Positions 41,151 to 45,207 of a stretch of 45,739 nucleotides of DNA are shown piece by piece. The notes below the pieces were generated by a model. The model made no database searches and had not been told where the DNA came from. It was given only the letters and a program-made list of their open reading frames with translations. The position numbers and the translations under genes are program-made. Position 1 is the first letter of the stretch, and the number at the start of each line of letters is the position of its first letter. The DNA is taken from the NCBI GenBank assembly GCA_947378235.1, contig CANCJE010000006.1, positions 1 to 45,739 of the forward strand, in the 5' to 3' direction. The DNA comes from Caulobacteraceae bacterium. GTDB lineage: Bacteria > Pseudomonadota > Alphaproteobacteria > Caulobacterales > Caulobacteraceae.

Positions 41151-41221
41151 TTGTTTTCTCTCCCGCGAACCAAGCAAGAATCGAGGGGAGCCTTCGCAAG
41201 GGGGATGAGGTGAGGGGATTG

Positions 41222-41538
41222 CTGTTGCCAGGCTCCCCTCGGGCCCCGCCTAACGCTGCTAAGACGTTAGGGCTTTAGGTCGAAATTCGTGGCACCGCAT
41301 TACGCAGCGAGACGGATCTCTTGAGCGAAGTTATCGTTCGCATTTAGATTAAGGCCCGATACCGGTGAGCCCACCCGAGAGAAAGCACTAACGTCTTTAC
41401 ACGTCTGTCGATGCTGATCGGCCCCAAACAGCCCGTCGATACACGGGGTAGGAATTGGTGGAGCCGCCGGGAATCGCACCCGGGTCCAGTCCGTTTATTG
41501 CACGCGCCTTTATCTCCATAGTCCGACCGTCGCCGAAC
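41222..41538 (-). ncRNA. ssrA: Transfer-messenger RNA, circularly permuted two-piece
   Basis: tmRNA rescues stalled ribosomes. Read on the minus strand, the acceptor piece runs first and ends CTCCACCA (3' end at 41456), with a T-arm of 5 bp (CCGGG/CCCGG around a TGCGATT loop). A 30-base spacer follows, then the coding piece starts GGGGCCG at 41425, which pairs with CGGCTCC of the acceptor end. The tag reading frame is 41300-41341: A-N-D-N-F-A-Q-E-I-R-L-A-A then TAA. The conserved UGGCAACAG end is near 41222. Both outer ends are approximate. Permuted tmRNA is a feature of alphaproteobacteria. Confidence 0.9.
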
Positions 41539-41544
41539 AGGATC

Positions 41545-41573
41545 AATATAGGCCCTCTGACGCGCTAGCGGAA
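41545..41573 (-). promoter_or_regulatory. Likely ssrA promoter
   Basis: On the minus strand TTCCGC (41568-41573) and TATATT (41545-41550) are 17 bases apart. It lies directly after the purC stop and just before the tmRNA acceptor piece. The -10 is good and the -35 weak. Confidence 0.45.
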
Positions 41574-41578
41574 GGGGT

Positions 41579-42541: not shown

Positions 42542-43102
42542 TTACATGGCCTCATTGCCACGGGTGATCGACAGGACCCCCGTGCGAGACACTTCAACCA
42601 GACCCAGAGGGCGCAACTGTTCGATGAAGCGGTCATTTTCGCTGGAGTCGCCAGTCACTTCGAAGATGAAACTCTCATCGGTGCTGTCGACAACCTTGGC
42701 CTCGAAGCCTTTGGAGATGCGCAGGGCCTCATCGCGGTCCGCGCCCCGGCCGCTGACCTTGACCAGAGCCAGTTCACGCTCGACGCCTAAGGGATCACGG
42801 CTGACATCCTGTACTTCCAAGGTCGCGACCATCTTTTCGAGTTGGGCGCGAATCTGGGCGAGCGTCTCGACCGTGCCGGAGGTGACGATGGTGATGCGCG
42901 AGGTGTGGGCCCGCCGGTCAGTCTCTGCAACCGTCAGGCTCTCAATATTATAGCCCCGGGCTGCGAACAGGCCGACCACGCGGTGCAGGACACCGGGCTC
43001 ATTGGCGACGATCACCGCAAAGGTGGCGCGCTGTTCGGCGACATCCAGATGATCAAGAAAATAGGCGGAGCCGGGTTGGTCAGCGGACATAGGCGTTCTC
43101 AT
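42542..43102 (-). CDS. ilvN: Acetolactate synthase, small regulatory subunit
   Basis: A 186-residue regulatory subunit of acetohydroxyacid synthase. The N-terminal ACT domain opens with TFAVIVANEPGVLHRVVGLFAARGYNIESLTV, a family signature involved in valine feedback, and the C-terminal part contains ELALVKVSG and FIFEVTGDSSENDRFIEQLRPLG. It stimulates and feedback-regulates IlvB. ATG at 43102 is used; ATG at 43090 is an alternative. The 111-base gap to ilvB carries a hairpin-forming repeat. Confidence 0.95.
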   Translation of the reverse strand: MRTPMSADQPGSAYFLDHLDVAEQRATFAVIVANEPGVLHRVVGLFAARGYNIESLTVAETDRRAHTSRITIVTSGTVETLAQIRAQLEKMVATLEVQDVSRDPLGVERELALVKVSGRGADRDEALRISKGFEAKVVDSTDESFIFEVTGDSSENDRFIEQLRPLGLVEVSRTGVLSITRGNEAM

Positions 43103-43213: not shown

Positions 43214-45025
43214 CTAGACCAGACCCCGGCCCTTGGCGTCGATGGCGGTGTTCATATCCACACCCATATCAGCCAAGATCATTTCATTGTGCGCCTTGCC
43301 CGATGGGATCATGGGGAAGCAGTTTTCGAGCTTGGTCACGCGGCAATCGAAAATCACGGGGTGGGGACTGTCGATCATCTCGATGATCTTGGCGTCCAAC
43401 TCCTGAGGCGTCGAGGCGCGGATGCCGACCGCGCCATAGGCTTCGGCCAGTTTAACAAAGTCGGGTAGGCTTTCGGAATAGGACTGGCTGTAGCGCTCGC
43501 CATGCAGCAGTTGCTGCCATTGGCGCACCATGCCCATCCACTCGTTATTGAGGATAAAAATCTTGATCGGCAGCCGGTACTGAATGGCCGTCGAGATCTC
43601 CTGCATGGTCATCTGGATCGAGGCCTCACCGGCAATGTCGATGACCAGCGAGCCCGGATGGGCCAGCTGCACGCCCACGGCGGCGGGTAGGCCATAGCCC
43701 ATGGTCCCCAAGCCGCCGGAGGTCATCCAGCGGTTCGGCTCTTCAAAGCGGTAATATTGCGCGGCCCACATCTGGTGCTGGCCGACCTCGGTGGTGATAT
43801 AGGCATCCCGGTCCTTGGTCAGGGCATAGAGCCGCTCGATGGCATATTGCGGTTTGATCTCATTGTCCGAGGGGCGATAGGCCAAGCAGTTGCGGGCGCG
43901 CCAGGCGTCGATCTGGGCCCACCAACTGGACTGGGCCTCAGCATTGGGCGTGTAACCCTTGGCTTTCCACAGGGTGATCATGTCGCGCATGACCGACCCG
44001 ACATCCCCGACAATGCCAATATCGACGCGGACCGTCTTATTGATCGAAGAGGGGTCAATATCGACATGGATCTTTTTCGAGCCCGGCGAGAAGGCATCCA
44101 GACGTCCGGTCACCCGGTCATCAAAGCGCGAGCCGAGCGCGATCATCACGTCGCAATCATGCATGGCATTGTTGGCTTCAAAGGTGCCGTGCATGCCGAG
44201 CATGCCCAGCCACTGAGGGTCAGCGGCGGGGAAGGAGCCTAGGCCCATCAGGGTTGAGGTAATGGGCGCGCCGGTCAGGGCCACAAGCTCGCGCAGGAGT
44301 TCGCTGGCCTCAGGTCCTGAATTGATCACGCCGCCGCCCGTATAGAAGACCGGCCTCTTGGCCTTGGCGATCAGCTCGACCGCGTCGGCAATGCGCTGTG
44401 CATCGCCCTTGGTCTGAGGGTTATAGGCATGGCCAAAGACCAGTTCGTCGGGACCGTAATAGTCAGCGGTGCCGAACTGAACATCCTTAGGGATGTCGAT
44501 GACCACAGGGCCGGGGCGACCACTGGTGGCGATATGGAAGGCCTCGTGCAGGATGGCGGGCAGGTCGGCGGTACGTTTCACCAGATAGTTATGCTTGGTG
44601 CAGGAGCGGGTAATGCCAACCGTGTCGCACTCTTGGAAGGCGTCTGAGCCGATCAGGTGGGTCGGCACCTGCCCGGTAATGACCACCAGAGGAATAGAAT
44701 CCATCAGGGCATCGACAATGCCGGTCACAGCATTGGTCGCGCCGGGCCCCGAGGTGACCAGCACAACGCCGGGCTTGCCCGACGAGCGCGCATAGCCTTC
44801 GGCGGCATGGGTTGCGCCCTGTTCATGACGGACCAGAACATGCTGCAGGCGCGGCTCGTGGAACAGCGCGTCATAGATCGGCAAGATCGCGCCGCCCGGA
44901 TAGCCGAACAGGGTATCTACGCCTTGGTCGACAAGGGCGCGGACGACCATTTCGGCGCCGGTCATGGCGCGAGATGGCGCTGCAGCGGCAGCATCGGTCG
45001 GGGTCAGGGTTGCGGCTTTGGTCAT
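43214..45025 (-). CDS. ilvB: Acetolactate synthase, large catalytic subunit
   Basis: A 603-residue ThDP enzyme that makes acetolactate or acetohydroxybutyrate for Val, Leu and Ile synthesis. N-terminal region [15 protein letters not shown] and the catalytic Glu in [16 protein letters not shown] are visible, as is the FAD region. The ThDP motif is GDVGSVMRD upstream and [13 protein letters not shown] to NNEWMGM downstream (the usual GDGS is GEAS here). No clear ribosome site precedes the ATG at 45025: the upstream sequence is pyrimidine-rich. A leader peptide and terminator lie 47-155 bases upstream, consistent with attenuation. Confidence 0.96.
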
Positions 45026-45071: not shown

Positions 45072-45095
45072 AAAGAAAAAGGCCCTCGAGGGGCC
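45072..45095 (-). terminator. Attenuator terminator upstream of ilvB
   Basis: On the minus strand GGCCC, a five-base loop CTCGA and GGGCC form a 5-bp stem (6 with G-U) followed by TTTTTCTTT. It lies between the leader peptide and ilvB. Its 3' arm CGAGGGC can instead pair with GCCCTCG in the leader reading frame. Confidence 0.7.
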
Positions 45096-45132
45096 CATTG
45101 TATACGCGACCGTCGACGGCTTGATCAGAGGA

Positions 45133-45180
45133 TCAAACCGAGGGCGGCCGCTTGCTAAGTACGTTCGCGTTTGCGAGCAC
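45133..45180 (-). CDS. ilvBN leader peptide (attenuator)
   Basis: A 15-codon reading frame on the minus strand, GTG to TGA: M-L-A-N-A-N-V-L-S-K-R-P-P-S-V. It contains Leu and Val codons (2, 7, 8, 15). A ribosome site GGAG at 45188-45191 is seven bases before the GTG. The stop overlaps a hairpin TTGATC-CTCT-GATCAA (45121-45136). Codons 12-14 (CCG CCC TCG) complement the terminator 3' arm. In Caulobacter crescentus ilvBN is known to be controlled by attenuation. This is a prediction; no protein is expected to accumulate. Confidence 0.65.
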   Translation of the reverse strand: MLANANVLSKRPPSV

Positions 45181-45207
45181 GAGTTTTCTCCGAAACTACA
45201 GATTAAA

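Follow-up and report, generated by a model that had tools for sequence, protein, structure and literature searches.

Attenuation of ilvBN has been described in Caulobacter crescentus, and the passage on it in PMC4117421, which cites Tarleton, Malakooti and Ely (1994), gives the leader tandem Ile/Val codons. The legend of Figure 6 in that paper names the attenuated operon as ilvIH and the leader as 'ivlL', where the text has ilvBN. The system was also named in an earlier reading of the present DNA (hereafter the original prediction). The locus studied here lies in the window (the whole stretch of DNA analysed, 45,739 nucleotides, from a draft genome of 211 contigs) and concerns the same operon in the same bacterial order. 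The Caulobacter relatives, including Caulobacter sp. Root655 (L035), carried the element at the same position before ilvBN with a homologous leader and hairpin. Their leaders were of the VRNTMIVLMERPFTA type, with the same large hairpin (P1) and terminator as the window, whose own leader has no Ile and reads N-V-L where the Caulobacter type reads I-V-L. Because the Caulobacter records carry the same element, that of the window was assigned to the known Caulobacter system and not to a new one. In sum, we consider it probable (about 0.85) that the region controls ilvBN as a ribosome-mediated transcription attenuator, an orthologue of the one in C. crescentus, with P1 as the protecting hairpin.

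The ilvBN, ilvGMEDA, leu and trp attenuators of E. coli resemble the present one in combining a leader peptide bearing control codons, a protecting hairpin and an intrinsic terminator. In E. coli trp, segment 2 is covered once the ribosome has reached the stop codon. In contrast, the stop codon here is located on the 5' side or in the loop of P1, or before P1, and the 3' arm of the hairpin foot is left uncovered. The window also differs from the E. coli attenuators in that no strong antiterminator is visible. In addition, Corynebacterium, an unrelated lineage, has an ilvBNC leader in which a short frame is translated and attenuation takes place before ilvB (PMC10272879, PMC11857589).

The coordinates of the features are listed in Table 1. 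The upstream gene is miaA, of which the 3' part lies within the window and the rest is cut off by the window end. Downstream, ilvN is followed by purC, and a two-piece (permuted) alphaproteobacterial tmRNA gene was found beyond purC (41211-41577, minus strand, 224.5 bits). The GGAG site, the GTG frame with Leu/Val codons at positions 2, 7, 8 and 15 (CTC, GTA, CTT and GTT), and the GC hairpin with its T-run before ilvB were all present where the original prediction had placed them. All 107 distinct relatives had a TTGAC box 5' of the leader, and in about 98 of them the distance from the box to the leader start codon was 55-57 nt; judged by this conservation, it is likely the leader promoter. 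A sigma-70 consensus scan of the window leader region gave no promoter match, because the -10 diverges from the consensus.

Table 1. Features of the ilvBN leader and the genes that it precedes (window coordinates)
Feature	Position	Strand	Evidence
TTGACC, -35-like, predicted leader promoter, overlapping the last miaA codons	45231..45236	-	TTGAC in relatives
Ribosome site (Shine-Dalgarno) GGAG, 7 nt 5' of the leader GTG	45188..45191	-	GGAG or similar in most relatives
Leader peptide frame MLANANVLSKRPPSV followed by stop; 15 residues, GTG start at 45180, TGA 45135-45133	45133..45180	-	conserved frame
Control codons GTA (Val7) and CTT (Leu8)	45157..45162	-	codon conservation and GTA-foot spacing
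P1 foot, 5' arm GCGGCCG (segment 1), within the leader frame	45145..45151	-	helix 1, 98.4% of cells paired
GCCCTCG, leader segment of the original prediction; present, not a conserved partner	45139..45145	-	pairing columns, match frequency
P1 upper stem and loop (CGGTTTGATC / CTCT / GATCAAGCCG)	45117..45140	-	helix 2, 9/9 pairs changed on both sides, 90% of cells paired
P1 foot, 3' arm CGGTCGC (segment 2), candidate antiterminator strand	45106..45112	-	GGUCGC nearly invariant
Intrinsic terminator: stem GGGCCC/GGGCCT (segments 3, 4), loop CTCGA, T-run	45076..45096	-	helix 3, 96.7% of cells paired in relatives
ilvB, acetolactate synthase large subunit, regulated gene	43214..45025	-	NCBIfam NF006581 (PRK09107.1), 1124 bits, above cut-off
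ilvN, acetolactate synthase small subunit, regulated gene	42542..43102	-	NCBIfam NF008864 (PRK11895.1), 195 bits, above cut-off

About 104 distinct elements kept the leader frame and its [IL]-V-[LIV] core, and the leaders of distinct relatives were 9-19 residues long and followed the pattern VRxxx-[IL]-V-[LIV]-xx-RP. An in-frame GTA was found in 104/104 leaders, a frequency biased somewhat upward by the inclusion of GTA in the search model, and most leaders also had CTT or CTC as a control codon. With the ilvB genes of 24 relatives as the codon-usage reference, GTA made up 79% of the leader Val codons against 2% in ilvB, and CTT/CTC made up 90% of the leader Leu codons against 18%. Attenuation theory links codon choice of this kind to those tRNA isoacceptors that respond most sensitively to starvation (PMC1183508). 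Moreover, the distance from GTA to the P1 foot was 11-12 nt in nearly all relatives. A short frame, a ribosome site and end-product codons are thus found together, and their conservation across the family along with the terminator supports the predicted ribosome-mediated attenuation of ilvBN. In six relatives (L165, L176, L200, L210, L217 and L223), the leader stop comes directly after a core of the I-V-L-T type and before the P1 foot, where a ribosome at the stop is only 1-3 codons past the control codons.

P1 (45151-45106, minus strand), absent from the original prediction, lies between the control codons and the terminator and dominated the minimum-energy fold; in the window, the leader stop codon sits in its upper 5' strand. 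The upstream regions of IlvB relatives were gathered and examined, and a covariance model of P1 and the terminator was built from 15 sequences. Across 96 aligned elements (91 distinct), 94.4% of the P1 and terminator cells were paired and 14 pairs had changes on both sides, in an alignment that was fitted to the covariance model and leans toward the modelled structure. None of 500 shuffles reached either figure, helices slid as controls were paired in 27-47% of cells, and a MAFFT alignment of the 15 sequences gave the same picture. For P1, 134 double-change cells were counted compared with 34.5 in shuffles, and none of 500 shuffles scored as high. The upper stem varied freely by compensation, whereas the foot GCGRCC:GGUCGC, although paired in 98.4% of cells, was nearly invariant in sequence. 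The foot sequence was kept across differing reading frames (97, 7 and 2 leaders), which indicates a constraint at the RNA level. Since the foot begins 11-12 nt past GTA, a ribosome stalled there would keep it open. The covariation and the spacing point to a protecting hairpin that overlaps the frame and could be opened by a stalled ribosome.

An intrinsic terminator is located between the leader frame and the first structural gene, with stem arms at 45096-45091 and 45085-45080 (minus strand), followed by TTTTTCTTT. A terminator scan gave 1 site against 0.6 expected in shuffles and is weak alone, so the terminator call was based on conservation. The whole leader folded at -55.6 kcal/mol compared with -39 ± 3.9 kcal/mol for shuffles (z -4.23). 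When folded at full length, the leader paired its Shine-Dalgarno region GGAGAAAA (45184-45191) with the terminator T-run and the next bases (45074-45080); this pairing is probably incidental.

The covariance model matched in 183 of 299 family genomes and in 13 of 22 genera. The 13 element-bearing genera were those whose IlvB in the relatives sample was at least about 70% identical; the other 9 had a distant IlvB or none. IlvB proteins 72-74% identical to that of the window were also found in two records labelled as other phyla or classes, Lysobacter sp. CAU 1642 (L069) and a Mucilaginibacter MAG (L107), which may reflect transfer, mislabelling or contamination. The element was single-copy in its own genome. 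A second element there was considered and rejected, as the sole other model match was the antisense of the first.

The following sequence of events is proposed, built on P1 and the terminator, which are established by covariation and conservation. Transcription would begin near the end of miaA, as the conserved TTGAC box suggests, and a ribosome would translate the 15-codon leader, whose frame, ribosome site and codons are conserved. With ample Val, Leu and Ile, the ribosome would pass the control codons, terminate and leave; P1 would then form and sequester its own 3' arm, and the terminator would stop transcription. The state giving termination would be release from the stop codon, not a ribosome parked on it. 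When charged tRNA-Val or tRNA-Leu is scarce, the ribosome would stall at GTA CTT with either codon in the A site. The 5' foot arm of P1, which lies 11 nt downstream, would be covered by the leading edge of the ribosome, a geometry that is conserved. The freed GGUCGC is predicted by the model to engage the 5' arm of the terminator (the 2:3 helix), upon which the polymerase would read into ilvBN.

The capability of the freed arm to act as an antiterminator was studied in the folding model. With the P1 5' arm masked and the terminator 3' arm not yet made, the P1 3' arm paired with the terminator 5' arm at a mean of 0.50 in 102 relatives, compared with 0.00 without a ribosome. The candidate 2:3 helix, typically GGUC:GGCC of about 4 bp, was present in 95% of cells and invariant. 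Its median energy was -3.3 kcal/mol against -11.4 kcal/mol for the terminator, and no covariation was found in it among the aligned elements. In 85/91 sequences, GGUC can pair just as well with the GGCC in the 3' arm of the terminator. In an unbiased search for further shared helices, only GGUC against either terminator GGCC recurred as a candidate switch, and since GGUC fits both, the search cannot separate 2:3 from 2:4. Under equilibrium folding, whatever the ribosome state, the terminator won in almost all species. This measure therefore cannot decide a kinetic switch, and it was rejected as a criterion of antitermination. As an antiterminator, a helix between the freed 3' arm of P1 and the 5' arm of the terminator is a better candidate than the GCCCTCG pairing discussed below. 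The sensing half of the switch is well supported; because the 2:3 helix is weak and without covariation, the antitermination half is one that we infer.

It is possible, though doubtful, that there is no true antiterminator. The stalled ribosome would then open the foot, and the loss of P1, either as a pause hairpin holding the polymerase or as a support stacked by the terminator, would lower termination. The foot and its spacing are conserved while the candidate antiterminators are weak and vary from one family to another, and in most relatives only 6-10 nt separate the end of P1 from the terminator, all of which would fit. However, readthrough in the well-studied amino acid attenuators depends on alternative pairing.

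The original prediction placed the switch elsewhere: a ribosome stalled at codons 7-8 would leave GCCCTCG free to pair with the terminator 3' arm, and a ribosome at the stop would mask it and let the terminator form. GCCCTCG (45145-45139) and CGAGGGC (45088-45082) are indeed perfectly complementary in the window, but the match is not conserved in relatives. The segment spans the last foot base, the internal loop and the first upper-stem bases of P1. Among 102 elements, a match of at least 7 bases occurred only in 3 near-identical sequences of the same genus (L001/L003/L004-like), and such a match arises in about 1% of shuffled leader segments. In the 91 distinct sequences, 68.4% of the pairing cells were paired compared with 68.2% in shuffled columns, with no compensatory excess. 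Folding of the leader and its alignment with relatives bore out the frame, P1 and the terminator as conserved, with P1 covarying, but gave no covariation for the 7-base pairing.

In the folding simulations, the pairing overcame the terminator only at an exact position of the ribosome edge and only in the sequences that carry the match. The equilibrium fold of the window lost the terminator when the distance from the G of GTA to the ribosome edge was exactly 16-17 nt, but the terminator returned in the model when the first free base was 1-2 nt to either side. In the 89%-identical congeners L006/L007, the pairing failed and the terminator stood at 0.88-0.92. With the ribosome at the window TGA, the freed P1 3' side paired with the terminator, whose probability was 0.01-0.15, so the stop-codon state did not restore it in the model. 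Furthermore, the stop codon precedes the P1 foot in 7 of 106 leaders, and therefore masking of GCCCTCG at the stop is not the general device. This switch is very unlikely. The original prediction was partly supported: attenuation was the right reading in general, and the particular pairing was not upheld. Most likely, the switch acts through the large conserved P1.

The leader follows miaA directly in the window, and it could be a plain miaA terminator beside a chance frame, with ilvB driven by another promoter. This is highly improbable, as frame, P1, terminator and ilvB stay together in several relatives that have no conserved miaA end upstream of the leader, and the codon bias and covariation require translation and folding. 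A metabolite riboswitch or T-box would likewise be a structured, conserved leader with a terminator, but it is scarcely credible, since Rfam searches at gathering and permissive thresholds gave nothing relevant on the leader (no family at threshold, none below E 1, and no membership of a curated riboswitch or leader family) and conservation follows the translated frame, the rare Val/Leu codons and the fixed codon-hairpin distance.

Similar leaders were seen further afield. In Hyphomicrobiales and in sister families of the order to which the window belongs, ilvB/ilvI leaders had Ile/Leu/Val codons, often with GTA, a long hairpin and a terminator of the AGGCCC type or similar; the sequences of the hairpin foot differ from that of the window, and the likeness in Hyphomicrobiales was judged by inspection. 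Eleven Hyphomicrobiales records (L040, L046, L053, L059, L063, L072, L075, L078, L085, L091 and L109) showed a GCGC-rich hairpin foot in the same layout. The sister families that share this layout gave no convincing sign that the freed foot arm pairs with segment 3. A speculative and rather improbable extension is that a sub-design of attenuation is widespread in alphaproteobacteria, in which the outcome depends on the foot of a long hairpin that overlaps the leader frame: either a stalled ribosome holds it open, or it closes once the ribosome has been released at the stop codon. A ribosome still on the stop codon would have no protecting role, and a strong conventional antiterminator would be unneeded.

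The known Caulobacter ilvBN attenuator is thereby shown to be a conserved, family-wide RNA element that no Rfam model matches. The proposed switch, which was based on a lineage-specific 7-base match, is corrected, and a genetic result from a single species becomes a testable structural model. Its geometry can be measured: the distance from an invariant rare Val codon to the foot of the hairpin, which covaries, is 11-12 nt.
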